Below, piece after piece: positions 27,596-48,010 of a stretch of DNA of 64,000 nt (the first letter of the stretch is position 1; each line of letters opens with the position of its first letter). Source of the stretch: Caulobacter vibrioides (GTDB lineage: Bacteria > Pseudomonadota > Alphaproteobacteria > Caulobacterales > Caulobacteraceae); assembly GCF_002858865.1 (NCBI RefSeq), contig NZ_PJRR01000014.1, forward strand, positions 124,001 to 188,000, read 5' to 3'. The notes beneath the pieces were generated by a model that ran no database searches, was not told the DNA's origin, and saw only the letters and a list, made by a program, of their open reading frames with translations. The translations under genes and the position numbers were made by a program.

Positions 27596-27617
27596 CCCGC
27601 GCGTCTCTGGACAGCCT
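27556..27617 (+). repeat. 62-bp repeat, copy 1 (integrase 3' end and following start)
   Basis: The 62 bases match 51375-51436 at 58 positions without gaps. They cover the last 12 codons of the integrase remnant and the first eight codons of the overlapping downstream frame. Both copies are in plus orientation. Confidence 0.85.
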
Positions 27618-27784
27618 TAAGTGGTCACCATGCCGTTTGTGGCCAGCGTTGAGTGGTGACCCCAAATGGTCGATTTGGCAGTGTTCTGAAAAATCAAAGG
27701 GCTACGCGGACAGCGTAAAATGGTCCCCACAGGGGTATTGTACGGACCACCTAACGCTGTCCACTTTGACCACTTAAGGCTGTC
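27610..27784. mobile_element. 175-bp element with perfect 18-bp inverted ends, IS21-like end remnant
   Basis: GACAGCCTTAAGTGGTCA (27610-27627) is the exact reverse complement of 27767-27784. Inside are three further variants of the same unit (consensus GACAGCGTTAAGTGGTCACC): 27642-27661 and 27709-27728 in direct orientation, and 27744-27761 inverted. Several approximately 20-bp repeats, direct at one end and inverted at the other, are the known layout of IS21-family termini, so this may be two IS ends left after internal loss, or a small non-autonomous derivative. No transposase is present. It cuts the reading frame that starts at 27592. Confidence 0.6.
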
Positions 27785-27998: not shown

Positions 27999-29177
27999 TC
28001 ACGCAGCGATAGGCAACCAAGCTTCCGCAGCGCGCAGTAGTCGAGCTTCGGCTTCGGCGATCTCCAGTTCGCTGATCGTCAGCGGCGGCAGGAGGCGCAC
28101 GACATCGGCGCCCGCCGCAACGGTCATGACGCCAAAGTCTCGCAAGTGCGCGACGACGTCCCGCGCCGACGCACGAACCTGAAGTCCTCGCATCAGACCA
28201 TGGCCCTGAGCTCGGACGAACAGGTCGCTGTGTCGACGCAAGAGGCGCTGTAGCAGAGCGTCCACAAGCGCCGCCCGTTCACGAACAGTCTCCAGAAAGC
28301 CAGGCGCCAGCACCGCGTCCAGCACCGCCGAGGCGACAGCGCAGGCCAGTGGATTGCCGCCGTAGGTGCTGCCGTGTGACCCAGGCGTCATGCCGCTGGC
28401 GGCGTCCTCGGTCGCAAGGCAAGCGCCGATTGGAAAGCCGCCGCCCAGCCCCTTGGCCACAGCGATGATATCGGGCCGCACGCCATAGAGCTCATGGGCG
28501 AACAGGTGGCCCGTGCGACCGATGCCGGTCTGCACCTCGTCAAGGATCAGCAGCAGGTCATGCTGGTCGCACAGGGCGCGAAGGCCGGCCAGGAACCCGG
28601 GAGTCGCCGGCGTTAGGCCGCCTTCGCCCTGGATCGGTTCGACCAGAATCGCGGCGGTCTGTGGGGTGATCGCGCGCGCTGCGCCCTCGATATCGTTGAA
28701 CGGTGTGGTGTCGAAGGCGTCGTAGAGCGGCGTAAAGCCTTCCCGAACCTTCATCTGATCGGTGGCCGAGATGGTCGCCAGGGTGCGGCCATGGAAGGCG
28801 TTGCCGAAGGTCAGCACACGGTAACGCTCAGGGCGGCCCTTCGCGCCTTGCCAGCGCCGCGCGGTCTTGATGGCGGCCTCGACCGCCTCGGCGCCGGAGT
28901 TAGCGAAGAACACGCGGTCGGCGAAGGTCGCGTCGGTCAGCTTGGTGGCCAGGGCTTCCTGGGCCGGCAGCCGGTAGAGGTTGGAGGCGTGCCACAGGAT
29001 GTCGGCCTGTGTCTTCAGCGCCTGGACCAGACGCGGATCGCCGTGACCCAGGGTGTTGACCGCCACGCCGGCGGCGAGATCCAGGTAGTCGCGGCCGTCC
29101 TGGTCGTAGAGCCAGCAGCCTTCGCCGCGGACGATGTCGATGTTGGCGCGCGCATAGGTGTTCATCAGGGCGGACAC
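27999..29177 (-). CDS. astC: Succinylornithine/acetylornithine aminotransferase (AstC/ArgD type)
   Basis: 392 residues, a class III PLP aminotransferase. Motifs: [47 protein letters not shown] and the PLP lysine in [16 protein letters not shown]. AstC and ArgD cannot be told apart reliably by sequence, and many bacteria use one enzyme for both. Its place as last gene of an ast operon, nine bases after astB, argues that it converts succinylornithine to succinylglutamate semialdehyde with 2-oxoglutarate as acceptor in arginine breakdown. Confidence 0.88.
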
Positions 29178-29186
29178 GGCGGTCTC

Positions 29187-30467
29187 CTAGACGGTCGGGG
29201 CGGTGAGGAAGGTTTCGAGGGCGGCGTGGGCGACCATGGCGGCTTCCCAGAGCGCGGGATCGGTCAGATCGGATGGCGCTATAGCTCTTGGCCACCAGGT
29301 TTCGACCAGGCGTGTCAGCCGATCGAGGCGTGCGTGGTCCAGCAGGAAGGCCGGGTTGATCTGGTCGCGCGCTGCGGCCGCAACGGGTACGCGCAGGCGC
29401 AGGCAGGCCGGACCGCCGCCGTTGCTCATGCTCTGGCGAAGATCGACGACCTTAACCTTTGTGACCGGATTGTCCGCCGCCAGGATCGTCTGAATCTCAC
29501 GCCAGGCGGCGGCGTTATCGCGCGCCTCGACTGGGACGATCAGGGCCATGTCGCCGTCCGGCAAGGACACCAGTTGCGAATTGAACAGGTAGGAAGCGAC
29601 TGCGTCTTCGAGGCTCAGGTCGCGCGTCTCGATGACCACCAGCCCGGGCAGCCGCGCGGAGAGTTCGGCCAGCAGGTCGGGACGCGTGGCGAAAGCCTGA
29701 GGGTGGGCCAGCAGGACGTTGGCGTTGGCGACCGCGACGACGTCGTTGTGAAAGGCGCCGGCCTTGATCGCCTCGGCGCTCTGCATCGCGAAAAGCGCGG
29801 CGGGCTGAACGCCCGCCAGCCGCGCCGCGGCCTGACTCGCGCGCAGGGCCTGGCGTTCGGGGAAGCGGCCGCCCCGCGGCGCGCCGTGGACAAAGACATT
29901 GACGCCGCGCGCGCCGTGGTTCGCCGCCAGCCGCATATGGTTGGCCGCGCCCTCGTCGCCCAGATGGGCCGCGAACGGCAGAGGGGCATGGACCGCGAAG
30001 GCCTCGCCGGAAAAGACGCGCCGCAGCGTGGCGTAGGTGTCATCCGCCTCCAGCGACCGATGAATCATCGTGCCCAGATTGGCCGTGACCAGGTGGACGC
30101 GGCCGTCGGCGGTGTCGGGCGCGGCGAGCACCGTGGCGGCGTTGGCGGTCCACATCGACGACGCTGAGGACGCCGCGCGCAACAGGTCTAGATCCTCGTC
30201 GGCGACCTGGGCCAGGACCGCTTGGTCCGAACCCTTGAAGCCCAGCCGACGAAGGACATGCGCGGCTGGGCGCGGCGGCGGCGGTAGAAAGCCCTGGGTC
30301 AGGCCCAGATCCAGAAGCGTGCGCATCTTGGTCAGGCCCTGCAGGGCCGCCGCGCGTGGGCTTGAGACCGCGCCCGCGTTGCTGTGCGAGGCGATGTTGC
30401 CCAAGGACAGGCCCGCATAGTTGTGGGTCGGTCCGATCAGGCCGTCGAAATTGATTTCCAAGGTCAT
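29187..30467 (-). CDS. astB: N-succinylarginine dihydrolase AstB
   Basis: 426 residues, slightly shorter than E. coli AstB (447). It hydrolyses N2-succinylarginine to succinylornithine, two ammonia and CO2. The opening [21 protein letters not shown] is the family signature, and the substrate-pocket segments [14 protein letters not shown] and [17 protein letters not shown] (containing the nucleophile Cys) are intact. The start overlaps the astD stop by four bases (ATGA at 30464), so the genes are translationally coupled. Confidence 0.95.
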
Positions 30468-31882
30468 GGGGTCAGGCCGATCGGCAGACGGAAGACGGGG
30501 CTGGGGCTTTCCAGCCCGGCGACGGGATAGGCGCTGTAGTCGGCGGCGTAGTAGGCGCTGGGGCGGTGGTTGCCAGACCCGCCAACCCCGCCGAAGGGCG
30601 CGGCCGACGAGGCGCCGGTTGTGGGACGGTTCCAGTTGACGATCCCGGCGCGCACGCTGGCCCAGAAGCGCCGGTAGAGCGCCTCGTCATCGCTGATGAG
30701 ACCGGCGGCGAGACCAAATCTTGTGGCGTTGGCCAGGGCCAGGGCGGCGTCGAAATCCGCCGCGCGGCGAACCTGAAGCAGCGGTCCGAAGATCTCCTCG
30801 TCGCGCAGCGGCGCGTCGGTGAGCTCGATCAGGCCAGGCGAGAGTAGAGCCGAGCGCGCTTCGCGGACCGCGGCCAGCCGCAACGGTCGCCCGCCGTCGG
30901 CGGTCATCCGGTCCTGGGCCGCCAGAACCTGAGCCGCCGCGTGGGCGTCGATCACCGGGCCCATGAAGGGCGCGGGCGATTGGAAGGGGCCGCCGATCAC
31001 CAAGCGGTCCATCAGCATCGTCAGCGCCTCCAGCAGCGCATCGCCGCGTGCGCCCTCGGGCAGAATCAGCCGCCGCGCGCAGGTGCAGCGCTGGCCGGCG
31101 GTCACATAGGCGGACTGGACGATCAGGTGCGCCGCCGCTTCAATGTCCGCGACGTCCCAGACGACCAGGGGCGCGTTGCCGCCCAGCTCCAACGCCAGAA
31201 TCTTGTGCGGGGCGTCAGCCAGCGCCCGATGGATGGCGCGCCCGGCCTGGACTCCGCCGGTGAACAGAACGCCGTCCACCGCCTCGTGCCGAACCAGCGC
31301 CTCGCCCGCCTCGCCGCCACCGATCACGATGGTCAGGACGTGGTCCGGCAGTCCCGCCGCGCGCCAGAGTTCGCCCATCAACTGGCCGCAGGCGGGCGTC
31401 TTTTCGCTGGGCTTGAACACCACGGCGTTACCCGCCAACAGGGCCGGAACGATGTGGCCATTGGCCAGGTGCATGGGAAAATTGAACGGGCCGATCACAG
31501 CCAGGACGCCGTGAGGCCGGTGCGCCAGCCGCGCAGTAGCGTCGGCCATGGACTCGGACCGCTCGCCCGCTCGCTCGTCCTGGGCGCGGATCGAGATGGC
31601 GACCTTGGCCGCGACGCTGTCGGCCTCGGTAAGCGCCTCCCACATCGGCTTGCCGGTCTCGCGGGCGATCAGGGTGGCGATCTCCTCCCGGCGTGCACGG
31701 ACGATCTCGGCGAAGCGCAGGGCGATCGCGCGGCGCTCGGCCAGCGGCGTCATCGCCCATTCCGCGAACGCGGCGCGAGCACTATGGCAAGCCGCGTCGA
31801 TGCTGCGCGCATCGTTCACAGCGAAATCCGCGATCGCCTCGCCCGTATAGGGGTCACGAGAGATGAGCCTAGAAGCGGACAT
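30464..31882 (-). CDS. astD: N-succinylglutamate 5-semialdehyde dehydrogenase AstD
   Basis: 472 residues of the aldehyde dehydrogenase superfamily. It oxidises succinylglutamate semialdehyde to succinylglutamate with NAD. NAD-binding and catalytic motifs are visible: [42 protein letters not shown] with the general-base Glu, and the nucleophile Cys in [11 protein letters not shown]. It overlaps astA by 14 bases and astB by four. The tight coupling supports the specific AstD call over other dehydrogenases. Confidence 0.93.
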
Positions 31883-32912
31883 GGGTGATCTCCTGGCCGG
31901 GCGCCAAGCCCAGGGCGTTGATGAGCGAGGCTTCGGCGCGGACGCCGTCGTCGCCCGCGCTCAGGCCGCCGCGCACCACACGGAACGCCGCGCCGGCCCC
32001 CGCGCAGACCAGGGCGTCGTCGGTGGGGGTGTCGGTCAGACCGGCTAACGGCGCGCGACGCGCCTCGCGAATGGCCTTCAGATCGTCGATCCGCGCGCGC
32101 AAGGTCGGACCGCCGTCGAAGATGTCGACATAGCCGTCGCTGACGAAGCCCTCTTCGCGCAGCAGGCGCTCGGCCCCGACACCGTCCTGGTGGGGCTTGC
32201 CCAGCGCCGCCTGGGCTGCGGGCGGCAGCAGCCCGACGTAGATCGGATACTTGGGACCGAGGTCGGAGATGAAGCGGGTGCCGCTCAGCGCGCAGGCGCG
32301 GTCGGCCGCCGCGAAATCCATGGCGTAAAAATGCGCGCCGAGCGCATCCCAGACCGGCGAGCGACCATCTGCGTCCTGAACGCCCCGAAGGTCTGCAATC
32401 ACCTGCTCGCCGAACCAGTCCCGGTGGCGGGCCATGAACAGATAGCGGCTACGGGCCATCAGTCGCCCTGCCTGGCCCTTGCGCGCGTCCGGCGCGACGA
32501 ACAGCCCTCCGACCTCGGCTTGGTCGGTAAGGTCGTTGACCAGAGTCAGCACAGACATTTCGACGCGCTTGCCCAGGTCCGGCGACAGTTGGGTCAGGCG
32601 GGTGACGCGATAGCTGTAGAAGGGTTGAGCGACCCCGATCCGGGCGAACACGCAGGCCGCGCCAATAACGCGGCCTTGCCGCTCCAGGACCAGATAGACC
32701 GCCGCTCCGGCGTTGCGGGTTTCCGGGTCGATCAAGGCCTGTTCCGACGCGGCCAAGCGGTCGTCGAGCGCGGCTCGGTCGGCGGGGAGATTGGTCATTC
32801 CCGCATCGGCCGCCCGCGCCAAAGCCAACAGTCCGTCAAGGTCGCCGCGGCGCGCAGGGCGAACCAGATCGGCCGTCTGGGGCGCGGATGGCGTTGTGGG
32901 TGGCCTTGACAC
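31869..32912 (-). CDS. astA: Arginine N-succinyltransferase AstA
   Basis: 347 residues starting at a GTG with a strong GGAGGAG site nine bases upstream. It transfers succinyl from succinyl-CoA to arginine, the entry step of the AST pathway. The GNAT-like fold begins LVRPARRGDLDGLLALARAA. FYSYRVTRLTQLSPDLGKRV and the SKY-like ARSRYLFMARH region are typical of AstA. It is the first gene of the ast operon and reads away from the Lrp/AsnC regulator, which is probably its controller. Confidence 0.93.
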   Translation of the reverse strand: MSRPPTTPSAPQTADLVRPARRGDLDGLLALARAADAGMTNLPADRAALDDRLAASEQALIDPETRNAGAAVYLVLERQGRVIGAACVFARIGVAQPFYSYRVTRLTQLSPDLGKRVEMSVLTLVNDLTDQAEVGGLFVAPDARKGQAGRLMARSRYLFMARHRDWFGEQVIADLRGVQDADGRSPVWDALGAHFYAMDFAAADRACALSGTRFISDLGPKYPIYVGLLPPAAQAALGKPHQDGVGAERLLREEGFVSDGYVDIFDGGPTLRARIDDLKAIREARRAPLAGLTDTPTDDALVCAGAGAAFRVVRGGLSAGDDGVRAEASLINALGLAPGQEITHVRF

Positions 32913-32934
32913 CGAATTTTCTCCTCCCGATTAG
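32906..32934 (+). promoter_or_regulatory. Weak candidate promoter for the Lrp/AsnC gene
   Basis: TTGACA (32906-32911), a 17-base spacer and GATTAG (32929-32934) resemble a housekeeping promoter with a poor -10. It overlaps the astA start, so transcription in the two directions may interfere. Confidence 0.25.
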
Positions 32935-32974
32935 TCTCCAGTCTTGCCGAGGTTTCACGGCATTGCTGATTGAA

Positions 32975-32994
32975 CTTCGGCGTTCAGGCCGAAG
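32975..32994 (+). promoter_or_regulatory. Seven-base inverted repeat over the Lrp/AsnC ribosome-binding region
   Basis: CTTCGGC-GTTCAG-GCCGAAG is a perfect inverted repeat ending three bases before the ATG at 32998. It could be an operator for the Lrp-type protein (autoregulation and ast control) or an RNA hairpin that hides the start site. Confidence 0.4.
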
Positions 32995-32997
32995 AAA

Positions 32998-33486
32998 ATG
33001 CGGTTCTCTAAGGGCGGAGCGACAGAAGCTGTGGTGGATCGGATCGACGAGAAGATTCTGCGGGCGCTGCAGGCCGATGCGCGCCTGACCAACGCGGCCC
33101 TGGCCGAACAGGTGGGCCTCTCGCCCAGCGCCTGCCTGGTGCGAACCCGTCGCCTGGAGGCCGAGGGTTACCTGCTCAGCTACCATGCCCGTCTGGCCGT
33201 GGAGCGCCTGCGGCCGACTGTGATCGTGTACGCCGAGGTGACGCTCAAGCGGCACCATCCGGATGACTTTCTGGTGTTCGAAACCGCCATCGCCGACTTG
33301 CCGGAAGTCATTGAGGCGGCTCAGGTCAGCGGTCCGTTCGACTACTTCCTGAAGGTCTGCGCCCGCGACGTGCTCAGCTGGCGGGAGCTGGCGGACAGTC
33401 TGCTTCGCAGCGAGTTGGGCGTCGACAAAATCGCCACCCACATCCTGATGAAGGAGACCAAGCCCTTCGTCGGATATCCGCTCTAG
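32998..33486 (+). CDS. Lrp/AsnC-family transcriptional regulator
   Basis: Up to 162 residues from the ATG at 32998; GTG codons at 33031 and 33034 behind GGAG would give the more typical length of about 150. The N-terminal winged helix-turn-helix reads IDEKILRALQADARLTNAAL, then VGLSPSACLVRTRRLE. The C-terminal RAM ligand-binding domain (about 75-150) includes SGPFDYFLKVCARDV and the closing THILMKETKPFVGYPL. Members sense amino acids as octamers. Divergent from astA and upstream of the TonB receptor, it most likely controls arginine or cyanophycin use. Confidence 0.92.
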   Translation: MRFSKGGATEAVVDRIDEKILRALQADARLTNAALAEQVGLSPSACLVRTRRLEAEGYLLSYHARLAVERLRPTVIVYAEVTLKRHHPDDFLVFETAIADLPEVIEAAQVSGPFDYFLKVCARDVLSWRELADSLLRSELGVDKIATHILMKETKPFVGYPL

Positions 33487-33882
33487 GCGACCCGGTGGCG
33501 GCGCCTGAATTTTGAGCGGTGACGTGGGTCTTCGGCGGCATCATCTTGCAGGCGGCTTGCCAGATGCGGACTTTTATGTAGCGTTATCGCGTCGAGAGGA
33601 CACGCTCAGCCATGCGCACCCCGCATCAGGTTCTCGTGCGCCGGTCTGTTCAGTACCATCTGAAAGACTGGTTCAACGAGTGATACGCCCCCCGGCCGCC
33701 CAGCGGTCGGCCATAGGCGTGCGCCCCTAGGGCGCCCTTGGACATCCCCATACAGGCCCTGAGCCGTCGCGCCTCGCGATGGTCGGAACCCTTGCGGCGT
33801 CCCGCCTTCCACCGCTCTTCGCCATCGACATAGCGCCGCTCGCGGGCAAGGTCCCGTCGCGTGGCTCCGGGGGACATTTTCC
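33487..33882. other. Intergenic region upstream of the TonB receptor
   Basis: About 400 bases. A 75-codon minus-strand frame (33650-33877) is open, but I find no ribosome-binding site or family pattern for it, so I do not call a gene. The region must hold the TonB-receptor promoter. GGGGGA eight bases before the ATG at 33883 is its ribosome-binding site. Confidence 0.4.
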
Positions 33883-36696
33883 ATGAACTTCCATCGCAAC
33901 GACCTGAGCCATGTGCTCGGGGCGATACTGGCGCTCGGCCTGACGCAGACCGCCTTCGCCCAGGAAACCAAGCCAGCCAAACCGCCCGCCGCCCAGGATG
34001 AGCCGCAGGTGCTCGAAGCCGTGACCGTAACGGGCACCCGGATCCAGGGTCTGGATCTGAAGGGGGCGGTGCAAGCCTATCAGATCGACCGCGAACTGAT
34101 CGACGAGTCGGGGGCGACTTCGGTCATCGACCTATTCAACCAGCTGCCAATCGCCGCCGGCGGCGGCGGCACCTTCTCGACGGCCAGCGCCGGCGCGCTT
34201 TCCGGGGACACGCCCGTCGGCGCGTCAGGCGTCTCGCTGCGGGGGCTGGGAACCAGCGCCACCTTGACCCTGATCAACGGTCGACGCGCGTCGATCAGCG
34301 CCTTCGCTCGGGGCCAGGAATCCTTCATCGACGCCAGCGCTATCCCATTGGCCGCGCTCGAGCGCGTCGAGATCCTCCCTAACGGCGCCTCGGCCCTCTA
34401 CGGCGCAGACGCGGTGGCCGGTGTCGTTAACTATGTCCTGCGCAAGGACTTCGAGGGCCTGGAAGCGTCGCTCTCCTACGGCGACTCGACGGCCAAGAGC
34501 GACGAAGGCCGGGTCAATTTCAACCTTGTCGCCGGCAAGGCGTTCGGCGATCACCACGTGACGGCTGTGGTCGACTACTTCAAGCGCAACGCCTTCTATC
34601 TGCGAGACCGCGCCGCTTCCCGCGACTCTTTCCGACCCAGCCAGCAGGGCTTCCATCCCAGCTTCAACGATCTCTTCTTCATGACCAACGACCAGACCGA
34701 AGGGCCTGGCGGAAGCGGTTGCGCGAGCGCGGACTTCAAGGTCGGGAACCTCGGCGAGTACTGTCAGGTCAACGCCAACCGCTACGTCTCCTCTCAGGAC
34801 GAGCAGGAAAGCGTCGGCGGGCTGATCTCGCACAGCTACAGCTTCGGCGACGGGGCGACTTGGTACAACGAACTCCTGTTCCAGTCCTCCAAGGCGCAGG
34901 GCACGAGCTCGCCGGCCAACTTCTCACGGGCGCCTATCGATCCGGAAAATCCCAACTGGCCGACCACGCTGAAGGACGACCTCGTCGCCGAGGGCAAGGT
35001 GCGGCGCTTCAGTTCCTATTACGGCTTTCCGATCTTCGCCTGGGGCAAGCTGATCGACTCCCGCGCCGTGGAAGTGGAGTCGCAATCCTACCGCTTCGTG
35101 ACGGGCCTGAAGGGTCGGTTGGCCTCGGGTTGGACCTATGATGCAGGCCTGACCATCGGCGGCAACGACCGGACGCAGGAAGGCCTCTCGGGGCTCTACC
35201 GCTCGAAGGCCTTCTATGACGCCAATCTCGGAAATCTGTGTACGGACGGATCGGCTGTCCGACGCTGGAACGTCAACCTAAGCCGGCCCAGCGCCACCTA
35301 TGTCGGCGCCACATGTGAGGCGGCGGGCAAGACGACGCTTTGGTACAATCCGTTCGGCGGCCAGACCCAGCAACCGGGCGGCTTGACCGACCGGTTGGAA
35401 ACCAAGGCCCGCCGCGAGGGTCGCTCTCGCGCCTACGCCTTGGACGGGTCGCTGTCGGGGGACCTGTTCACCCTGGCTGGTCGTCAGGTGAAGGGCGCCT
35501 TCGGGGCGGAGTATCGCCGCGAGACCCTGCGCGACACGCCGTCCGGCGACGCCGTGGCCACCGCGACCAACCCCGAACCGATCCTGGGTTTCTCATCGAC
35601 CAGCGCCAAGGCAGAACGGGACCAGTGGGCCGTCTACGGCGAGGTCTATGCCCCGCTATCGGACCGTCTGGATCTGCAGCTGGCGGCCCGGTACGACCAC
35701 TACGACGCGTTCGGCGGCGACTTCAATCCGAAGGTTTCCGCGCGGTTCCGCGCGACGGACGCCCTGACGTTCCGGGCGAACTGGTCCACCTCATTCCGCG
35801 CGCCATCCTTGGCCCAGAGCGGCGCCGGCGTGCTGCTGTCCAGCTACCGCGTGAACTGCAGGATCACCCCGCAGGCCTGCGGCGGCAGCGCGACCGCAAA
35901 CGGACAGGCGCTCCTGTCGGAGGACGTCGGCAACCCCGAACTGAAGGCCGAGAACGCCAAGACTTGGGGCGGTGGTCTGTTGTTCGAGCCGACCGACGAT
36001 ATTGAGATCAAGCTGGACTACTGGAATATCGAACACCGCAACCTGGTGGGCGTCGCGGAGGACGACTTCATCCGTCGCGCCCTGGCCGGGGCTTTCCCGG
36101 TGAAGGGGCCGGGCCAACTTCCGACGGGCCAGGCGGGTGTCGAGGTCACTAACGGCTTCGTTACGGACGCGCACTTCCAGATCAGCAATCTTGGCTACCA
36201 GAAGACCCGCGGCGTCGATTTCTCCTATACCCAGCACCTGCCCGAGAGCTCGGCGGGGCGCTTCACCGCGACGTTCGACGCGACCTATCTGATCGCCTTC
36301 GACCGCAAGGCCTCGGCCGACGCGCTGATTGAGCGCCTGGCCGGCGACTATCTCTATCCGCGATTCATGGCGAACGCCCGGATCCGCTGGAGCAAGGACG
36401 CCTTGCGAGCCTCCTTGGGCGCCCGCTATGTTAGTCGTTACACCGACCAGCCCGACCCGCGCACCCTGGCAGCGGTCGGTATCGCGGCCAATACCAAGGT
36501 CAAGGTGGACGCCTCGTTCACGCTGGACGGCAGCGTCAGCTACGACTTCTCGGAGCACAGCTACATTCAGCTGAACGTCCGCAACCTGCTGGACGAGGCG
36601 CCGCCTCGGGTTCTGGGCTCAAGCGCGAACGTCGACCTCTACAATCATGACCTCATCGGGCGGTTTGCTACACTCCGCCTGACACATCGCTTCTAG
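33883..36696 (+). CDS. TonB-dependent outer-membrane receptor
   Basis: 937 residues. The signal peptide ends at about residue 27 (LTQTAFAQE). A TonB-box-like LEAVTVTGTRI follows at about 45, then a plug domain (SGATSVIDLFNQLPI, VSLRGLGTSATLTLINGRRA, RVEILPNGASALYGADAVAG) and a large 22-strand-type barrel ending in TLRLTHRF with the terminal Phe needed for assembly. It imports a large or scarce ligand using proton-motive force. The downstream transporter, cyanophycinase-like and isoaspartyl peptidase genes suggest a peptide ligand such as cyanophycin fragments; this is inference. Confidence 0.92.
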   Translation: MNFHRNDLSHVLGAILALGLTQTAFAQETKPAKPPAAQDEPQVLEAVTVTGTRIQGLDLKGAVQAYQIDRELIDESGATSVIDLFNQLPIAAGGGGTFSTASAGALSGDTPVGASGVSLRGLGTSATLTLINGRRASISAFARGQESFIDASAIPLAALERVEILPNGASALYGADAVAGVVNYVLRKDFEGLEASLSYGDSTAKSDEGRVNFNLVAGKAFGDHHVTAVVDYFKRNAFYLRDRAASRDSFRPSQQGFHPSFNDLFFMTNDQTEGPGGSGCASADFKVGNLGEYCQVNANRYVSSQDEQESVGGLISHSYSFGDGATWYNELLFQSSKAQGTSSPANFSRAPIDPENPNWPTTLKDDLVAEGKVRRFSSYYGFPIFAWGKLIDSRAVEVESQSYRFVTGLKGRLASGWTYDAGLTIGGNDRTQEGLSGLYRSKAFYDANLGNLCTDGSAVRRWNVNLSRPSATYVGATCEAAGKTTLWYNPFGGQTQQPGGLTDRLETKARREGRSRAYALDGSLSGDLFTLAGRQVKGAFGAEYRRETLRDTPSGDAVATATNPEPILGFSSTSAKAERDQWAVYGEVYAPLSDRLDLQLAARYDHYDAFGGDFNPKVSARFRATDALTFRANWSTSFRAPSLAQSGAGVLLSSYRVNCRITPQACGGSATANGQALLSEDVGNPELKAENAKTWGGGLLFEPTDDIEIKLDYWNIEHRNLVGVAEDDFIRRALAGAFPVKGPGQLPTGQAGVEVTNGFVTDAHFQISNLGYQKTRGVDFSYTQHLPESSAGRFTATFDATYLIAFDRKASADALIERLAGDYLYPRFMANARIRWSKDALRASLGARYVSRYTDQPDPRTLAAVGIAANTKVKVDASFTLDGSVSYDFSEHSYIQLNVRNLLDEAPPRVLGSSANVDLYNHDLIGRFATLRLTHRF

Positions 36697-36708
36697 CCCT
36701 TGGGCCCA

Positions 36709-36747
36709 GCGCGTGGCTTCGCGGCGCGGAGCCACGCGCGCCTTTTT
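36709..36747 (+). terminator. Rho-independent terminator or attenuator
   Basis: GCGCGTGGCT (36709-36718) pairs perfectly with AGCCACGCGC (36730-36739) around an 11-base loop, followed by GCC and five T. It begins 12 bases after the TonB-receptor stop and the T-run ends ten bases before the transporter ATG at 36758. Confidence 0.8.
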
Positions 36748-36757
36748 GAGATTTCCC

Positions 36758-38245
36758 ATGTCGTCCCCGACCTCAGATCCGCCGAAGGGTGCGCCGGGCA
36801 AGAGCAAGCTGCCCGACACCTTTCTGATTCTGCTGTTTCTGGCCCTGGCGGCCTTCGTGAGCACCTGGATCTTCACGCCCGGTCGCTACGCCTTGAGCGC
36901 TAAGGGACGCATCGATCCGACGTCGTTCGAGGCCGGCGCGGCGCCGCTACGCGCGCCGCTCTTTGGCCAGGACGGCGCCGTGGGCTTTTTGAACGTTCCG
37001 TTCGAGGGACTGGTCGCCGGCGACCGATCCTCCACGACGGTCGGGCTGATGGCCTTCATCCTCGTGATCGGCGGCGTGTTCGGCGTCCTGATGCGCACCG
37101 GCTCGATCGACCGGGTGCTGACCGCCCTGATCGGTCCGCCAGACAAGCTGGGGACAGTGCGTGGCGACCTCATGGTGATGGGCCTGTTCGTCGCCTTCTC
37201 GCTGGCGGGCGCCGTTTTCGGCATGAGCGAGGAAGCAATCGCCATCAGCCTCATCCTGACGCCGATCCTGGTGCGCAGCGGCTATGACTCCATCACCGGC
37301 ATGCTGACCTGCTACGTGGCGACCCAGGTCGGCTTCGCCACCTCCTGGATGAACCCGTTCGGCTTGGTGATCGCGCAAAGCATCTCGGGTTTGCCCACCC
37401 TGTCGGGGATGAGCCTGCGCCTCGTCATGTGGGTGGTCTTCACCTTGGTCGGGGTGGCCTATCTTGGCTGGTACGCCCGCCGCGTGCGCCGCGATCCGAC
37501 GCTTTCGGTCGCCTTCCAGTCCGACGCGCGCTGGCGCGACACCGCCTCGGTCGTCGACTCAACCGCCTTTCGGAAGGGCGACCTCGTGGTGTTGGCCTTG
37601 CTGCTGGCGACCGTCATCTGGGTCGCGTGGGGCGTCATCGCCAAGGGCTATTATCTCGCCGAGATCGCGGCGCAGTTCTTCGCGATGGGTCTGGCCGTTG
37701 GTCTGATCGCCTACGTTCTGAAACTGGGCCAGTCCGGCGCGAACGATCTGGTTCGAGCGTTCGGCGAAGGCGCCGCGCAGCTGGCGCCAGCGGCGCTCGT
37801 CGTCGGGATCGCCAAGGGCGTCTTGCTGATGATCGGCGGCGACAAGCCCGACCACTGGAGTCTGCTCAACAGTCTGCTTCACGCCATGGGCGGCCTGACG
37901 GCCTTACTGCCCGACTGGGCGACGGCCTTGGGCATGCTGGGCTTCCAGAGCGCGATCAACCTCGTCATCGTGTCGGGCTCCGGCCAGGCCGCCCTGACCA
38001 TGCCCCTGATGGCTCCGCTGGCTGACCTAGCGGGCGTGTCTCGGCAAACGGCCGTGTTGGCGTTCCAACTGGGCGACGGGCTGACCAATATTGTCGCGCC
38101 GACCTCTGCGGCCCTGATGGGATGCCTAGCGGCCGGGCGCCTCGGCTTCTCCACCTGGATCACCTTCGTCTGGCGTCCGCTCGCGGGTCTCCTGCTGCTG
38201 GCGGCGGCCTTCATCCTGATCGCGCAGGGGCTGGGCTACCAATGA
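36758..38245 (+). CDS. YfcC-family inner-membrane transporter
   Basis: 495 residues from the ATG at 36758; an earlier GTG lies within the terminator stem and is unlikely. About 12 hydrophobic segments, in the order and with the motifs of the YfcC/ion-transporter superfamily: FILVIGGVFGVLMRTGSID, GAVFGMSEEAIAISLILTP, TSWMNPFGLVIAQ, a VSGSGQAALTMPLMAPLAD loop and FQLGDGLTNIVAPTSAALMG. Relatives are annotated as basic amino-acid or peptide carriers. Between a TonB receptor and two peptidases for beta-aspartyl peptides, it probably imports the dipeptide or arginine. It overlaps the next gene by four bases. Confidence 0.85.
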   Translation: MSSPTSDPPKGAPGKSKLPDTFLILLFLALAAFVSTWIFTPGRYALSAKGRIDPTSFEAGAAPLRAPLFGQDGAVGFLNVPFEGLVAGDRSSTTVGLMAFILVIGGVFGVLMRTGSIDRVLTALIGPPDKLGTVRGDLMVMGLFVAFSLAGAVFGMSEEAIAISLILTPILVRSGYDSITGMLTCYVATQVGFATSWMNPFGLVIAQSISGLPTLSGMSLRLVMWVVFTLVGVAYLGWYARRVRRDPTLSVAFQSDARWRDTASVVDSTAFRKGDLVVLALLLATVIWVAWGVIAKGYYLAEIAAQFFAMGLAVGLIAYVLKLGQSGANDLVRAFGEGAAQLAPAALVVGIAKGVLLMIGGDKPDHWSLLNSLLHAMGGLTALLPDWATALGMLGFQSAINLVIVSGSGQAALTMPLMAPLADLAGVSRQTAVLAFQLGDGLTNIVAPTSAALMGCLAAGRLGFSTWITFVWRPLAGLLLLAAAFILIAQGLGYQ

Positions 38246-39465
38246 AGCGGCTGACGATGGGACTTGGTCTCGCCGTGCTGGCGGCGGGGCCGGCCTTGGC
38301 GGAGACCGGGCGCCTAGTGATCGCCGGCGGCGCGGTGGATCCGGCCAACGACGCGCTTTACGGCGCCTTTATCGCCGAGGCGGCGCGTCACGCCGCCGAT
38401 CCTCGCGCGCCCCGCTTCGTGATCGTGCCCGCGGGCTCCGCCGAACCCAGCGGATCCGCCGAGGCGATGATCGGCCATCTTGTCCGACGGGGCGTGGCGC
38501 GTGAGGTGATCGCCGTCGCCGAGATCGCGATGGTCGACGATCCGGAGACGCCCGCAGTCGACGAATCACGATGGCGCGACGGCGCCAGCTTGGCCAGCGA
38601 GATCGCCAAGCTCTCGACCGCCGACGGGATCTGGTTCGTCGGCGGCGATCAGTCCCGGATCATCGCGACGCTGAAGACCCACCAGGGCGGCGATACGCCG
38701 TTCCTGGCGCGTCTGCGCGCGCGGTGGCGGACTGGTGCGGCGATCGGCGGGACCAGCGCTGGCGCTGCCATGATGAGTGGTCCGATGATCGTCGCAGGCG
38801 ATAGTCCGGCCGCCCTCGTGTTGCCGGTGGGCGCAGCAGCGGGGCCGCTGGGCGAACCACTCTCCATGGGCCAGGGCTTGGGCTTCTTTTCGTTTGGGCT
38901 CGTCGATCAACATTTCGACCGTCGCAAACGCCTGGGGCGCTTGGCGCGCGCGCTGGGCGCCCTATCGCCGACCCAGCGGCTGGGCTTCGGCGTCGACGAG
39001 AACACCGCCATGGTGGTCGATGTCGATCGACACGCAGCCCGCGTGATCGGCGCCGGCGCGGTGACCGTGCTGGACGCCCGTAAGCCGGGCCGCCTGCGGC
39101 GTGAGCCCTACGCCTTGCGGAACGCGACGCTCACCATGCTCACCGATGGCGACGCGATCGATCTGCGGTCACTGCATGTGACGCCGTCCTCCGGAAAAGT
39201 GCTCGTCGCGACGCCATTGTCCGCGCGATCACGACCCGAGGCGCGGCTGGCTTCTGAGCTTCTCGCGCTGCCCGTTGGCGCCGCACACCGGCTGACTCAG
39301 CCGATCGGTGACCATGCGCGCGTCGACTTCAGCTTCGCGCGGGCGCGAGGCGCCAGGGTCTTCGTTGGCCCCGATCAGCCTGACCGATCGGGCGTCACGC
39401 TCATTGACGTGAAGCTTTCGATCACGTCGCACATCCAATCCAAAGAACCGCAGGGCCGACCATGA
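38242..39465 (+). CDS. Exported cyanophycinase-like peptidase, family S51
   Basis: 407 residues. The ATG at 38242 overlaps the transporter stop. The first 20 residues form a signal peptide (LGLAVLAAGPALAE). The S51 fold follows: RLVIAGGAVDPANDALY, then GIWFVGGDQSRI, the nucleophile Ser172 in GGTSAGAAMMSG, and GLGFFSFGLVDQHFDRRKRLGRL, typical of cyanophycinases. Cyanophycinase cuts the multi-L-arginyl-poly-L-aspartate polymer to beta-Asp-Arg dipeptides. Export distinguishes it from the cytoplasmic enzyme of cyanobacteria and points to scavenging of external polymer. The C-terminal 110 residues are an extra domain I do not recognise. Confidence 0.85.
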   Translation: MKRLTMGLGLAVLAAGPALAETGRLVIAGGAVDPANDALYGAFIAEAARHAADPRAPRFVIVPAGSAEPSGSAEAMIGHLVRRGVAREVIAVAEIAMVDDPETPAVDESRWRDGASLASEIAKLSTADGIWFVGGDQSRIIATLKTHQGGDTPFLARLRARWRTGAAIGGTSAGAAMMSGPMIVAGDSPAALVLPVGAAAGPLGEPLSMGQGLGFFSFGLVDQHFDRRKRLGRLARALGALSPTQRLGFGVDENTAMVVDVDRHAARVIGAGAVTVLDARKPGRLRREPYALRNATLTMLTDGDAIDLRSLHVTPSSGKVLVATPLSARSRPEARLASELLALPVGAAHRLTQPIGDHARVDFSFARARGARVFVGPDQPDRSGVTLIDVKLSITSHIQSKEPQGRP

Positions 39466-40346
39466 CCGATGTCCCCTATGTAATCGCTCTGCATGGCGGG
39501 GCGGGCGTGATCCCGGGACGGGACTATGGTCGCGCGCTCGACCATCTTCGCGATCTTGCGGCGCGGATGTCATCCAAGCTCGCGGACGGGCTCGACGCGA
39601 TCGACGCGGTCGAGATCGCCGTGACGGAAATGGAGGACAGCGGCCTCTATGTTGCTGGGCGCGGCTCGGCCCCGAACGCTGTGGGCGTGGTCGAAATGGA
39701 TGCCTCGATCATGGACGGCGCGCGCCACCGCGCGGGGGCGGTCTGCGCCATACAGGGCGTCGCCAGTCCAGTGGGCGCGGCGCGCCAGGTGCTTGAGGCC
39801 ACGCCGCACGTTCTCCTGGCCGGAGAAGGCGCCAGTCAGTTCGCGCGCGCGCGCGGCCTGCCGCTGATCGGGGATCCCGCAAACTTCTACCGCACGCCTG
39901 TCGGCCTCACTCAGGCCGACATCGACGCTGAGGCCGCCGCCTTGGCGCACGGCACGGTGGGCGCCGTGGCGCTCGACCGGCGGGGAGCCCTGGCCGCGGC
40001 GACGTCGACGGGCGGTGTCTTCGGAAAGCGGCCCGGACGAGTAGGCGACACCCCTCTGCCCGGCGCGGGCGTATGGGCTGACGGCGAAGTCGCCGTGTCC
40101 TGCACCGGGGTCGGCGAGTACTTCATTCTCGGCGCGACGGCCTATGACGTCGCCGCCCGCCTTCGCTACGCGGGACAATCCCTCGACCAAGCCTGCCAGG
40201 GCGCCATAGCCCGGATCGGCGAACTGGGCGGGGATGGTGGCCTGATCGCCGTGGACCGGCGCGGCCGTGTGAGCTTCCAGTTCAATTCACCGGGCCTGAA
40301 GCGCGCGGTGGCTGGCTGCGGGCGCCTCACGCAAGCGGTGGTTTAG
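39462..40346 (+). CDS. Isoaspartyl peptidase / plant-type L-asparaginase (Ntn hydrolase)
   Basis: 294 residues, overlapping the previous gene by four bases. The N-terminal HGGAGVIPG motif and the self-cleavage site HGTVGAVALD are present; after processing, Thr165 becomes the catalytic N-terminal nucleophile. TSTGGVFGKRPGRVGDTPLPGAG is the substrate-binding loop typical of plant-type asparaginases. The family hydrolyses beta-aspartyl dipeptides and sometimes asparagine. No signal peptide, so it acts in the cytoplasm. Next to a cyanophycinase-like gene it is the natural enzyme to split beta-Asp-Arg into Asp and Arg. Confidence 0.92.
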   Translation: MTDVPYVIALHGGAGVIPGRDYGRALDHLRDLAARMSSKLADGLDAIDAVEIAVTEMEDSGLYVAGRGSAPNAVGVVEMDASIMDGARHRAGAVCAIQGVASPVGAARQVLEATPHVLLAGEGASQFARARGLPLIGDPANFYRTPVGLTQADIDAEAAALAHGTVGAVALDRRGALAAATSTGGVFGKRPGRVGDTPLPGAGVWADGEVAVSCTGVGEYFILGATAYDVAARLRYAGQSLDQACQGAIARIGELGGDGGLIAVDRRGRVSFQFNSPGLKRAVAGCGRLTQAVV

Positions 40347-40825: not shown

Positions 40826-42298
40826 TCAGGGCTGCACAAGCTTGGCGATCATTTCGCGAGCGTGATCGTTACCGGGATTCAGCTCAAGGGAACGGCGATA
40901 GTTGGAAATCGCCGCCCCCTTGTCGCCAGTGGCCGCCAAGCCATCTCCGTAACTGTCGTAAGCATTGGCGCTAGCTGGGAAACTGGCGACGTTGAACGCG
41001 AACATCGCGCGTCCAGCGACGGGCCGCCCTGCCTCAATTAGGCGATAGCCCCAGCCATTCACATAGTCCTCAGTGAGGTGAAGTTCGGGGTAGCGCTGGC
41101 GGACAAGGGACACCGATGCGGCCACATCCGCGTAGTCGCTTTCTTCAAGCATCGCCTCTAGCGCCTTCAAACCTGCAGGTGGTCCAAACAGGGCTTCATG
41201 CACCGCCCGTGCAAGCTCTCCTAGGCGCCATTCCAAGCCCACGCGGTTGGCCAGGATGACGGAGCCATACCCCTTACCGGGATAGAATTCGCAGTAGCTG
41301 GAAAAGCCGTATGTGCTCCCGCTGTGGCTCAGATAGAGTTGACTGTCGGCCGTTTTGTTGACGAGCCAATGATAGCCAATCGCGCCGGTCTCCGGTGTGC
41401 CGAAGGTTGGCTCATGAGTGAGCGCAATGGCCGGGCTCGACGCCGCCAAATGGGCGTTGAGGTAACGCGCCATGTCGATCGCTGAATAGCGAAGGTTTCC
41501 TGCGCCGAGGCTTACCGCATCGATGGATGGCGGAGCCTCAAGCCCAGTTCCATCATAGCCTCGCGCCAGAATACTACGTGGCGGCTCGACGACGCCTGCC
41601 CCCATGCCAAAGGGCCGCTCGATGTAGCGCGCCAGCAAGGTCTGATAGGATTGTCCGTAAACGCGTTCGAGAACGACACGAAGAAGCTCGGACGCCACAT
41701 TGGAATGCCTAGGCGTTCGACCAGGGACATCGACCAAGCTGGCGTTGCGAAGATCGATCATCAACTGATCGGTACTGTAGTTTGCCAGCATCTGAGCTGC
41801 GACCAACGCGGCCTCGGATGGCTTGGCGTTTGCAGCAGCAGTGCGCCAGTCAGGAATGTTATCCGGCAGCGCCGATGTTGTGTTGACGAGGTCGATCAGC
41901 CGAACCGGACGCCCGTCGCGCACGAGATTGTCATACCCTGCGGGCAGATGTTGCCGTACGTCGTCTGAGGCGACAAGCCGCCGCTCTTTTATGGCATGGG
42001 CCAAAAGAAGGCCGGTGAAAGTCTTGGAGATTGAGCCAATTTCAAAAACAGATCGCTCGCTAACCGGGGATCCGTCGCGCGCCATCAGACCGGCATTGTA
42101 GTGTCGCGTGCGGTTATCCTGGACGACGGCCACCGAGATGCCATCGGCCTGATGCTCTGTGACGATCTTTGCAACCAGGGCGTCGATAGGATCCGGTCGT
42201 GTTTGCGCTCGGACATCCCATGCAGTCAGCAGAGGTGTCGTGGATACGAGGGCCAGAAAACTGCGGCGCTGAAGGCCATCACCCGAGAACCGCATCAT
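40826..42298 (-). CDS. Exported beta-lactamase-family serine hydrolase (class C/PBP-like)
   Basis: 490 residues from the ATG at 42298 with GGAAG six bases upstream; a GTG at 42322 is weaker. The N-terminus has a Tat-type leader (LQRRSFLALV). The active-site tetrad SISK is in EIGSISKTFTGLLLAHAI. At the second motif, where the family usually has YxN, this protein reads HSN (RHSNVASELL). The C-terminal part (about 420-490) resembles a TPR-type helical repeat (SYGDGLAATGDKGAAISNYR). Such proteins are esterases or D-amino peptidases more often than true beta-lactamases; the substrate is unknown. Confidence 0.85.
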   Translation of the reverse strand: MMRFSGDGLQRRSFLALVSTTPLLTAWDVRAQTRPDPIDALVAKIVTEHQADGISVAVVQDNRTRHYNAGLMARDGSPVSERSVFEIGSISKTFTGLLLAHAIKERRLVASDDVRQHLPAGYDNLVRDGRPVRLIDLVNTTSALPDNIPDWRTAAANAKPSEAALVAAQMLANYSTDQLMIDLRNASLVDVPGRTPRHSNVASELLRVVLERVYGQSYQTLLARYIERPFGMGAGVVEPPRSILARGYDGTGLEAPPSIDAVSLGAGNLRYSAIDMARYLNAHLAASSPAIALTHEPTFGTPETGAIGYHWLVNKTADSQLYLSHSGSTYGFSSYCEFYPGKGYGSVILANRVGLEWRLGELARAVHEALFGPPAGLKALEAMLEESDYADVAASVSLVRQRYPELHLTEDYVNGWGYRLIEAGRPVAGRAMFAFNVASFPASANAYDSYGDGLAATGDKGAAISNYRRSLELNPGNDHAREMIAKLVQP

Positions 42299-42609
42299 AG
42301 AAATCTTCCAGCCATGTTTCACCCCCCCATAAGGATCGCTTGGGGGATTTGCTAGGCCATTTGGTGGAAGGCATCAGGCCGCGTTCGAACGGCCGGCTCG
42401 ATTTCCAGCACTACCGCGAGAAGCGCAAACAGTCCTCTCTCTTGGCGTGGGAAGTGCGCCATTTGCTGCCGTTGACTAACCTCTAGAAAGGCGACATTCG
42501 GCGGAGGTGTTCACGTCGCCTTTGCTACGTCCGATCGCTTCCACCTCGGCGCGGACGCGACCGGTGGTGAGTGGGGTAGAGGGCGCGGATTTCGGATACC
42601 TCCTCAACC
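42299..42609. other. Intergenic region, 310 bases
   Basis: Contains the upstream region of the serine hydrolase and the downstream region of the GH92 gene. A short palindrome GGCCGCGTTCGAACGGCC-like stretch near 42390 is the only structure seen. No gene is supported. Confidence 0.35.
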
Positions 42610-45189
42610 TCAGAGCGGCGGCGCACCCGAGGTGGGCGCCGCACAGGACGCCCCCGCGATGAGCTCGACCTCGGAGACGCTCGCCTCACTGCCACCGTCC
42701 AGCACCCATCGCAGACGGGCGTATCGTCCCGGCGCCAGCGGGAAGGTCCGGGTCGCGTGGCGATGGTCGAACACCACCTTGCTCTGCTGGTCGACGCTCA
42801 CCCAGACTCGCCCGTCATGGGCCTGCAGGGTCCAGTGCGAGGGATCGGCTTGGTCGGGGCCGACGCTGACAGAATAGGCGGCGATGCAGGCGGGCGCCTT
42901 GAGACTGAGGGTGACCGACTGGCCCGGCGCGGCGCGCCAACCCGTCGAGGTCTTGCCGTCGACAAGGCTGGGCTGATCGGCGCGCGCCGTCAGCACCGCG
43001 CCCGCATAGATCCACTGTCCCGGCTGATCGGACATCGACAGGGACAGAACGCCGCCGCCCAAGAGCTGGGCCTGCGAGACATAGGGCCCGGCCAAAGGTT
43101 TGCCGTTGAAGCTCGCGCTCGCGATGTAGGGACGGCTGGCTCCGGCTTTGGCCGCCAGGATCTCAAGCGTCTTGCCGTTCTCCAACTGGATCACGGTGCG
43201 ACCATAGCGGGGCCCGTGCAGGTAGTAGAGATCGCTGCCCAGCTTCGGGAACAGCCCCAGGCTGTTGAAGACGAAGTTGGAGCTCATCGCGCCGGCGTCC
43301 TCATCGCCCGGATAGGCGTCCGCGGTGAAGTGCTTGACCACCTCCCCCGCCCAACGGGACGACAGATCCGCCCGTCCGATCGCGTGGAACAACCATGGCG
43401 TGGCGAACGACGGCTCGTTGGTGATGTCGATCAGGCCCGCATCGAGGGCGTGGTTCAGGCGCTCATTGAACCGAACGCGACCGCCCATCGCCTCGACCAG
43501 GCCCGGCAAGTCGTGCAGCACCCCATACGAATAGATCCAGGCCGTGCCCTCATAGTAGCCGACGTTGTTGTGGACCTTGCCGTCCCAGCCGAGCTTCGGG
43601 TCGATGTCCTGAAACTTTCCGTCGGCATAGCGCGGCATCAGAAAGCCTGAGAAGCCGTCGCTGGTCGCGTCAGGGTTCCAGATCTTGCGCCAGTTGGCCG
43701 AGCGCTCGGTCAGGATCTTGGCCTCGTCGGTCTGGCCGGCCTTGGCGGCGACCTGGGCGGCATAGAAGTCGTTCAGCGCGAAGCCCAGGGTCGAGGAGCC
43801 TGACTTGGCCCTCTGGTTGTTCGGCTCGGGGCTACGGTCGCCGACCGCGAAATAGCCGCTCTCCAGATAGCGCGGGCGGCGCCGCTCAAAAGCGTTGAAA
43901 CGAGCGACCCGCCAGGCGTCGCGCCAGTTCACACCCTCGGCCCCGCGCAGCAGGGCCTCGCCCAGGACGTTGTCGACTTCATCCCCGCCCTGCCCGACAT
44001 GATAGTTCTGGCCGCCGATGATCGCCGTATCCGCCGCCCCGAACTTGTCGAAGGTGTGGATCAGCGAATTGACATTGGCTGTGTAGAGGCTGGGCCGGAG
44101 CACCGATATCAGCGGGAACAGCGTCCGATAGGTGTCCCAGAGGGTGTAGTGCTCGTCCCAGTTCGGACGGCCAAGTCTTGCGGCCGGCTGGTCCAGCGAG
44201 CGGTCACGCGGGTGCGTCGAGGCGTGGTACAGCGCGCTGTAGAAGCGACGCTGTTGGCTTTCGGCCATTCCCTCCACGCGCACCTGACCCAAACGATCGT
44301 TCCAGGCGGCTTGGGTGTCGCGGCGAACCCGCTCGAAGTCCCAGTCAGGGATCTCGCGGTCCAGCAAGGCCTTGGCCATCTCGGCGCTGACAAAGGAGAC
44401 GGCGATCTTCACCAGGAGGGGCTTGGTGGGCGTGGTCTTGAAGGTGAGCCAGGCGCCCAGCCGCTCATCCGACCCTGTGCGGCCCGACAGGGCGCCGTCC
44501 CTGCGTTCAGCCTTGTCGAAGACACCCCAGGCGGTCGGGTTCTGATCAAACTCGGCCACGAACCAGATGTCGATCAGGGCCGGGTTCCAGTAACCCTTGG
44601 CCTTGACGTGGCCAACGATACGCCCCTGCTCGGGGAACAGTTGGACATCGGCCTGTTCCGAAGCCACCAGCCCGCCGACCTTGCGGGTCACGTCCAGGAC
44701 GACCTGCGCCTGGTCGGTCGTGGGATAGGTCAGCCGGTAGATGGCCGCGTAGTGCGCCGGCGTGATCTCCACCTTGGTGTCGTAGCGGGTGAGCCGGACT
44801 GAATAGGCGTCGGCCGCCAGGGTCTCATCGGCCTTGGGCGACAGATGGGCGGCTTCGTCGAAAACAGGCTCGCCGACCTGCGGCGACAACAGGAAGGTCC
44901 CGTAGGTGGTGACGCCACCGGATCCTTGCGAATGAAGCTGAGCAAAGCCGCTGATCGGTTCGGCCGGGTTGTAGCCGGCGTTACTGGCCTTCAGCGTGTC
45001 CGGCGACGGGTGGATCGATCCGTTTGGCCGGGTCGGCCCGGGAATGGTGTCGCCTTGATTATCGTCTCCCAAGCCGACGCGAAGGTCGGGAAGCTTGTAG
45101 AGCGCACGACCGGGCGCGGCTTGGGCTTGGTGAGCGGCCCCAAGAGCCAGAGCAAAGCCGACGACAAGGAGTTGGACTCGGAAACGCAC
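42610..45189 (-). CDS. Exported GH92 family alpha-mannosidase
   Basis: 859 residues. I use the GTG at 45189, which has GGGA seven bases upstream and gives a clean signal peptide (LLVVGFALALGAAHQAQA); a GTG at 45213 adds eight residues. The GH92 two-domain catalytic region spans about 30-735, with LWDTYRTLFPLISVL, the GQGGDEVDNVLGEALLRGAEG region, GYYEGTAWIYSYGVLHDLPG and GDEDAGAMSSNFVFNSLGLFP, typical of these calcium-dependent exo-alpha-mannosidases. The last 120 residues look like an F5/8-type (CBM32-like) carbohydrate-binding domain. Likely periplasmic, trimming mannose-containing glycans. It follows the LacI gene by 36 bases. Confidence 0.88.
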   Translation of the reverse strand: MRFRVQLLVVGFALALGAAHQAQAAPGRALYKLPDLRVGLGDDNQGDTIPGPTRPNGSIHPSPDTLKASNAGYNPAEPISGFAQLHSQGSGGVTTYGTFLLSPQVGEPVFDEAAHLSPKADETLAADAYSVRLTRYDTKVEITPAHYAAIYRLTYPTTDQAQVVLDVTRKVGGLVASEQADVQLFPEQGRIVGHVKAKGYWNPALIDIWFVAEFDQNPTAWGVFDKAERRDGALSGRTGSDERLGAWLTFKTTPTKPLLVKIAVSFVSAEMAKALLDREIPDWDFERVRRDTQAAWNDRLGQVRVEGMAESQQRRFYSALYHASTHPRDRSLDQPAARLGRPNWDEHYTLWDTYRTLFPLISVLRPSLYTANVNSLIHTFDKFGAADTAIIGGQNYHVGQGGDEVDNVLGEALLRGAEGVNWRDAWRVARFNAFERRRPRYLESGYFAVGDRSPEPNNQRAKSGSSTLGFALNDFYAAQVAAKAGQTDEAKILTERSANWRKIWNPDATSDGFSGFLMPRYADGKFQDIDPKLGWDGKVHNNVGYYEGTAWIYSYGVLHDLPGLVEAMGGRVRFNERLNHALDAGLIDITNEPSFATPWLFHAIGRADLSSRWAGEVVKHFTADAYPGDEDAGAMSSNFVFNSLGLFPKLGSDLYYLHGPRYGRTVIQLENGKTLEILAAKAGASRPYIASASFNGKPLAGPYVSQAQLLGGGVLSLSMSDQPGQWIYAGAVLTARADQPSLVDGKTSTGWRAAPGQSVTLSLKAPACIAAYSVSVGPDQADPSHWTLQAHDGRVWVSVDQQSKVVFDHRHATRTFPLAPGRYARLRWVLDGGSEASVSEVELIAGASCAAPTSGAPPL

Positions 45190-45225
45190 GACAGGTCCCT
45201 TTCCCGGGTTCACGGTTGTTCTGGT

Positions 45226-46272: not shown

Positions 46273-46355
46273 GGTCGCTCCCGAAACAGCGCGGAGCGGG
46301 CCGTTCTAGCGTCGATTGAGCCACTGCGGAGGTCCGGAAACGCCATCGGGGCTCA

Positions 46356-47939: not shown

Positions 47940-47978
47940 GAAGCCTCCGACGATCCGAGGGCCTCGGCGCGCGCCGAC

Positions 47979-48010
47979 CGCCCTCCTCTATAGAAATCGC
48001 CCTCCTCTAT
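47979..48010. repeat. 13-bp direct repeat, 19-bp period
   Basis: CGCCCTCCTCTAT occurs at 47979-47991 and 47998-48010, between the GH28 start and the TonB-receptor terminator. It may be a regulator site pair or chance. Confidence 0.5.

Follow-up and report, generated by a model that had tools for sequence, protein, structure and literature searches.

The window analyzed here, a 64,000-nucleotide stretch of Caulobacter vibrioides DNA (contig NZ_PJRR01000014.1, positions 124,001 to 188,000), carries at positions 27999-40346 nine genes, identified by inspection of its open reading frames (ORFs), that very probably constitute a locus for the scavenging of cyanophycin or of cyanophycin oligomers. 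Cyanophycin is an arginine-rich, nitrogen-rich polymer that serves as a nitrogen store of cyanobacteria. The support shown for this reading is at the level of sequence: the families of the encoded enzymes, an operon-like layout, the absence of a synthetase and the conserved co-occurrence of the genes. The genes named in an earlier note on this DNA, together with the motifs GGTSAGAAMMSG and HGTVGAV, were all present as ORFs where it had placed them, with one start codon corrected as described below.

Four adjoining genes on the plus strand, assigned to families with NCBIfam and Pfam models (as were the other window proteins), make up the uptake part of the locus. They encode a TonB-dependent outer-membrane receptor (TBDT; 33883-36696, with the PF07715 plug and PF00593 barrel both above cut-off), a YfcC-type inner-membrane carrier of the DcuC superfamily (36713-38245; NF008611, 642.9 bits, cut-off 500), a CphE-like S51 cyanophycinase (38242-39465; TIGR02069, 323.1 bits, cut-off 126.6) and an isoaspartyl aminopeptidase/asparaginase of the IaaA type (39462-40346; PF01112, 258 bits). 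The four look like a single operon, because the gaps between them are only 16 (counted from the first YfcC start codon), -4 and -4 bases. The listed S51 ORF opens at 38122, and the likelier start is the ATG at 38242 (MKRLTMGLGLAVLAAGPALA...); the YfcC/S51 and S51/IaaA genes therefore overlap by 4 bases each.

The prediction that the S51 protein is a cyanophycinase, made in the earlier note, is supported by both its family score and its pocket. The closest annotated protein, a cyanophycinase labeled Caulobacter vibrioides, is 99% identical to it. The ORF contains the S51 motif, and the residues of the Ser-His-Glu triad and of the pocket are all kept (Q137, S172, D222, Q223, H224, R228, R230, R233, and E253); for the triad comparison the CphB number used was E201. 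The fold is nearer to that of CphB than to that of PepE, and the N-terminus, judged by eye, is hydrophobic and signal-like with an AxA-like site. The pocket test covered the equivalents of CphB Q101, D172, Q173, R178, R180, and R183 (residue list from PMC3235067). As described in the same paper, CphEal, the CphE of Pseudomonas, shares with the window protein a length of ~420 residues with a leader (putative in the window protein), a Ser-His-Glu triad and a conserved pocket, whereas it is reported to have Thr beside the catalytic His where the window protein and CphB have Gln (a comparison by description). Cyanobacterial CphB (3EN0, 7UQW), in contrast, is an intracellular enzyme, and the match to it stops at model residue 316, the beta-rich C-terminal part (~345-398) being without a counterpart in it. 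That the S51 protein instead gives resistance to peptidyl-nucleotide antibiotics, as other S51 peptidases are reported to do for McC (PMC9239234), is the least probable reading that we considered and one to which we attach almost no weight: the N-terminus is export-like, the gene belongs to an uptake operon with arginine-catabolism genes nearby, and the cyanophycin pocket is complete. Second S51 genes were seen at several other loci: genome G005 has, near its four-gene cluster, a more distant S51 (33%) and IaaA-like (45%) pair (L044, 14174-15822) in which Ser replaces Gln beside the catalytic His, and the Microbulbifer loci L096, L097, L098, L106, L110, and L150 each carry two S51 genes, the second of which has Thr at this position, or Ser in the case of L150.

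No cyanophycin synthetase was found in the 3.97-Mb host genome (a genome-wide model search gave at best 76.9 bits, cut-off 850), in keeping with the scavenging route proposed in the earlier note. With a cyanophycinase, an isoaspartyl dipeptidase and a transporter clustered and no cphA1 in the genome, the locus has the features of the 'cyanophycin utilization locus' of strain L21-Spi-D4 (Ben Hania et al., 2017, as cited in PMC10206079). We then turn to relatives, for which the sample was 249 genomes with the window's own genome counted. The cyanophycinase cut-off was exceeded in 37 of these, and the neighborhood comparison drew on every over-cut-off place except that of the own genome, 37 places in total. 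A CphA-like gene was a neighbor at 27 of the 37 by tblastn (TIGR02068 confirmed it at each of the three loci checked, two of them in the same genus), and TBDT or YfcC matches were found at none of the 27. At six of the ten CphA-free places the TBDT, YfcC, S51, and IaaA genes occur in the same order as in the window. A TBDT ortholog (E ≤ 1e-100, three candidates scored per genome) was present in seven of the 249 genomes (the own genome, G005, G070, G123, G170, G194, and G223); these are exactly the genomes with the four-gene cluster, the TBDT stands at the cluster position in each, and YfcC belongs to the operon at all seven loci. No further TBDT ortholog was found in a wider class sample of 385 genomes, in which the neighborhoods of eight other over-cut-off cyanophycinases were not fetched.

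One alternative these comparisons address is that the locus is the remnant of a storage locus after loss of the synthetase, as might be suspected from the 15 places in 14 same-genus genomes at which a cyanophycinase lies near a CphA-like gene. We disfavor this as highly improbable, because TBDT and YfcC are missing from the CphA-linked loci and because the window S51 stands apart from the CphA-linked enzymes in a quick midpoint-rooted tree. In the same tree it falls among the TBDT/YfcC-linked enzymes, beside known cyanophycinases and outside the paralogs, a placement in keeping with the identification in the earlier note. The S51 protein is only ~50% identical to both of its same-genus sisters (29 of 101 aligned residues identical over residues 300-407), and its operon partners are much closer to theirs (TBDT 81%, YfcC 73%, IaaA 75-76%); on these identities S51 is one rapidly evolving gene inside a conserved operon. 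At L059 12166-16443, in G123, the TBDT is extended at its N-terminus, to 1024 residues, and has a FecR-like gene (named by eye) upstream, which suggests surface-signaling control; in a Brevundimonas metagenome-assembled genome (MAG) a related gene likewise precedes the TBDT (L107, 4229-5188).

Conservation of the neighborhood extends across orders and phyla, as the gene-order comparison proposed in the earlier note now shows. A scan of GTDB species genomes with an S51 alignment gave at least 477 confirmed relatives, and the best 80 were analyzed as named loci (L084, L089, L111, and L122 apparently repeat relatives already counted). These loci were picked by S51 alone, so the counts of their neighbors, obtained by tblastn with thresholds on the bit score, are not circular; they hold for the 80 nearest enzymes rather than for cyanophycinases in general, and some of the contigs break off close to the gene. 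Among 49 loci of Pseudomonadota we found TBDT at 33, YfcC at 34, IaaA at 16, and IadA at 17. The 17 Bacillota loci had YfcC (12), IadA (11), and a sigma-54 regulator (12), no TBDT/SusC, and in five cases no scored partner; the 12 from Bacteroidota had IadA (10), SusC (8), SusD (7), and YfcC (4), with one lacking any scored partner; and the two from Verrucomicrobiota had YfcC and IaaA once each. Overall, a YfcC match was near the cyanophycinase in 51 of the 80 loci, and IaaA or IadA (three representatives of the latter passed TIGR01975) occurred in 55, the two never together. An outer-membrane component confined to lineages that have such a membrane, a swappable dipeptidase and a widespread carrier make up the pattern predicted for a beta-aspartyl dipeptide uptake route.

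From this we lean, with somewhat more confidence than doubt, toward a joint interpretation in which the YfcC/DcuC carriers of these loci are dedicated importers of beta-Asp-Arg and the TBDT subfamily is a dedicated receptor for cyanophycin peptides. The system would then be a modular one for nutrient use. Its constant element would be the cyanophycinase, in most cases accompanied by the carrier; the component in the outer membrane (TBDT, SusCD, or none) and the choice of dipeptidase (IaaA or IadA) would have been swapped between lineages, and a few lineages would have captured an arginine succinyltransferase (AST) operon and an Lrp-type regulator of their own. It could be argued instead that the locus serves to scavenge isoaspartyl peptides of damaged protein in general, S51 being a broad dipeptidase; IaaA and IadA have been found promiscuous, and a role in clearing damaged protein has been suggested for them as well (PMC10206079). 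We consider this improbable: the full cyanophycin pocket, the fold closer to CphB than to PepE and the substitution of IaaA and IadA for each other around S51 speak against it.

Several of the named loci had features of their own. A common family of ~684 residues was present in the Bacillota set (L103, L113, L115, L116, L117, L129, L131, L133, L143, L151, L157, and L158), and the only member to be annotated, that of L133, proved to be a sigma-54-dependent regulator whose nearest family is PrdR, at a score far below cut-off. SusC-like genes, in most cases joined by SusD-like ones, are present at the Bacteroidota loci L134, L136, L140, L141, L144, L152, L155, and L159 (one gene of each type was annotated), which resemble a polysaccharide locus, though apparently one for a peptide polymer. 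Six Microbulbifer loci (L097, L098, L106, L110, L112, and L150) have a glutamine-synthetase-like gene in common (one annotated). The tree puts the cyanophycinase of L124, titled as a Klebsiella pneumoniae MAG, very near that of L119, which comes from an uncultured gammaproteobacterial MAG (the end branches measure 0.04-0.05), and the Klebsiella label may be wrong.

In the IaaA-type protein of the window, the Thr of the HGTVGAV motif (residue 165) aligns to residue 1 of solved beta subunits; the protein scores 206 bits against PRK10226 (cut-off 567), and we do not claim that equivalog name. It has no signal peptide by eye and is probably cytoplasmic, and the dipeptide would therefore have to enter the cytoplasm. 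Elsewhere in the genome there is a second full-length IaaA-like gene (54%), plus a weaker split match, so that the window IaaA is also an extra copy. The cytoplasmic placement bears on a different division of labor within the same locus, in which YfcC exchanges arginine or ornithine and beta-Asp-Arg enters via another carrier. The name of NF008611, 'putative basic amino acid antiporter YfcC', favors such an exchange, which we regard as possible but unlikely in view of the need for the dipeptide itself to reach the cytoplasm and of the position of YfcC, in the operon at every four-gene locus and near the cyanophycinase in most Bacillota loci.

Upstream of the uptake operon, and between it and a set of AST genes, lies a gene for an Lrp/AsnC-family regulator (32998-33486, plus strand; PF13404, PF13412, and PF01037 above cut-off, i.e., HTH_AsnC and AsnC_trans_reg). 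The AST genes lie on the opposite (minus) strand, are transcribed away from the regulator gene, and overlap or nearly do so: astA, arginine N-succinyltransferase (31869-32912; TIGR03243 subfamily, 403 bits, cut-off 284, with the equivalogs TIGR03244 and TIGR03245 below cut-off); astD, succinylglutamate-semialdehyde dehydrogenase (30464-31882; TIGR03240, 634 bits, cut-off 579); astB, N-succinylarginine dihydrolase (29187-30467; PRK13281, 577 bits, cut-off 452; TIGR03241, 477 bits, below its cut-off of 538; Pfam AstB, 587 bits); and an astC-type class III aminotransferase of the ArgD/AstC group (27999-29177; PRK01278, 571 bits, cut-off 372; TIGR03246 astC, 430 bits, below its cut-off of 609.95). 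AstA is widespread (202 of the 249 genomes), and the host genome has two, the window copy and one at C11:11259 (L061), which are 40% identical to each other. The closest relatives of the window AstA are two metagenome sequences (87-88%), beyond which come, among others, Phenylobacterium (54%) and sphingomonads (49-58%). The other AST locus has the order M20 hydrolase-astA-astD-astB, and M20-family hydrolases lie beside AST genes at L061 8514-9755, L059 18613-19875, L093 940-2133, and L083 12228-13457. The two members checked, including that of the other AST locus of the window genome, belong to NF005602, and the M20 hydrolase is a plausible candidate for an AstE substitute. The link between AST genes and the cluster is recurrent but rare: G123 has astD and M20 (L059) and astB, astA, an Lrp-type gene and an aminotransferase (extra stretch L168) near the cluster, a gammaproteobacterial MAG (L093) has astA, M20, an aminotransferase and an Lrp-type gene, and an Opitutaceae MAG (L121) has astB and an aminotransferase.

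A number of results weigh against the scavenging reading or narrow it. The earlier note had called the arginine catabolism 'complete-looking', a description that does not hold, as astE is missing from the window operon and no AstE match (TIGR03242) was found in the genome. The co-occurrence of the four genes with AST, which it had proposed to check, also fared poorly, with AST core genes in only 2 of the 80 named loci, so that the link is not generally conserved, and with none in the available DNA of two same-genus relatives that have the four-gene operon (L044, L046). A comparison of the two intergenic regions at the locus revealed no shared repeat. Four of the ten CphA-free places (L047, L048, L049, and L053) are without any partner, as are, in the DNA at hand, 14 of the 49 Pseudomonadota loci, and 25 of the 80 named loci have neither IaaA nor IadA. 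An IaaA-like gene (38-54%) was found in 15 of the 27 CphA-linked loci (2 at a stricter threshold), and IaaA alone is therefore no marker of the uptake module. One IaaA and one IadA from cyanophycin clusters were both promiscuous when assayed (PMC10206079), and specificity thus probably resides in the cyanophycinase and the transporters. The branch of the window S51 in the tree is 0.87, compared with 0.18-0.20 for its neighbors, indicating faster evolution. The word 'predatory' in the earlier note is without evidence, the nine genes including no lytic or attack function (no genome-wide search was made).

The scavenging route that we propose would begin with the TBDT, through which cyanophycin fragments or beta-Asp-Arg (oligo)peptides would cross the outer membrane, and with the putatively exported cyanophycinase, which would release beta-Asp-Arg from the aspartate backbone in the periplasm or outside the cell. 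The YfcC carrier, as its conserved neighborhood suggests, may take beta-Asp-Arg across the inner membrane, and IaaA, in the cytoplasm, would split it to give aspartate plus arginine. From there the additional AST enzymes encoded next door could carry arginine toward glutamate and succinate; the last desuccinylation would depend on an enzyme from outside the locus, for which the M20 hydrolase at the other AST locus is a possibility. The Lrp-type protein is a possible coordinator of both operons.

Loci of this kind are known in outline, and we consider the present one a variant rather than a new system, in which the transport parts and the extra AST operon come out more clearly. Cyanophycinase and iaaA genes are clustered in 30 of 32 genomes without cphA1, often with amino acid transporters (Sharon and Schmeing, 2023, PMC10206079). 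Compared by description only, these clusters and the Ben Hania locus share with ours an adjoining cyanophycinase, isoaspartyl dipeptidase and transporter, no synthetase and an inferred scavenging role; the window locus, from a Caulobacter, has these with a TBDT, YfcC, a second AST operon and a regulator of the Lrp type. Use of outside cyanophycin has also been suggested, from the presence of a cyanophycinase, for Pseudoalteromonas tunicata (PMC2536512) and a Thalassotalea strain (PMC7564069). The claim that the transporters are newly assigned stands only in part: cyanophycin was proposed in 2012 as the substrate of a TBDT beside a cyanophycinase in Citromicrobium sp. JLT1363, in a paper that names these two genes (PMC3400609), and our literature search found no paper joining cyanophycinase with YfcC. 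The JLT1363 locus (L126) has the same gene order (TBDT 61%, YfcC 53%, S51 40%, and IaaA 61% identical to the window) but, unlike the window, no AST core gene was found in it, only one 28% aldehyde dehydrogenase match. A search on cyanophycin and arginine succinyltransferase returned, by titles, nothing on such a locus. Uptake of outside cyanophycin has hardly been assigned at the transporter level in the literature searched. Two transporters, a hydrolase and a dipeptidase, a conserved set with parts swapped across four phyla, are concrete, testable candidates, and could serve as markers when metagenomes from water or sediment are examined for cyanophycin turnover. A direct coupling of arginine breakdown to cyanophycin uptake is a possibility that the second AST copy suggests.

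Other features flank the locus. Just past the end of astC, at 27610-27784, there is a perfect 18-base inverted repeat with 139 bases between its arms and a third copy with 3 mismatches (shuffled windows give a mean of 0.02 matches); parts of the sequence around it are found again at G000:C6:175367 (91%) and at 190807 (81%), and it is perhaps a mobile-element or MITE-like trace. On the other side, 40826-42322 encodes a serine hydrolase akin to class C beta-lactamases and AmpH, which matched 42 families, far below the curated cut-off in each of the 25 shown, and is no evidence of resistance. Further to the right, 42610-51064 encodes a GH92 glycosidase (Pfam match) and, as named by eye, a LacI-like regulator, a pectate-lyase or polygalacturonase-like protein and another TBDT, and is perhaps a second nutrient-use locus.

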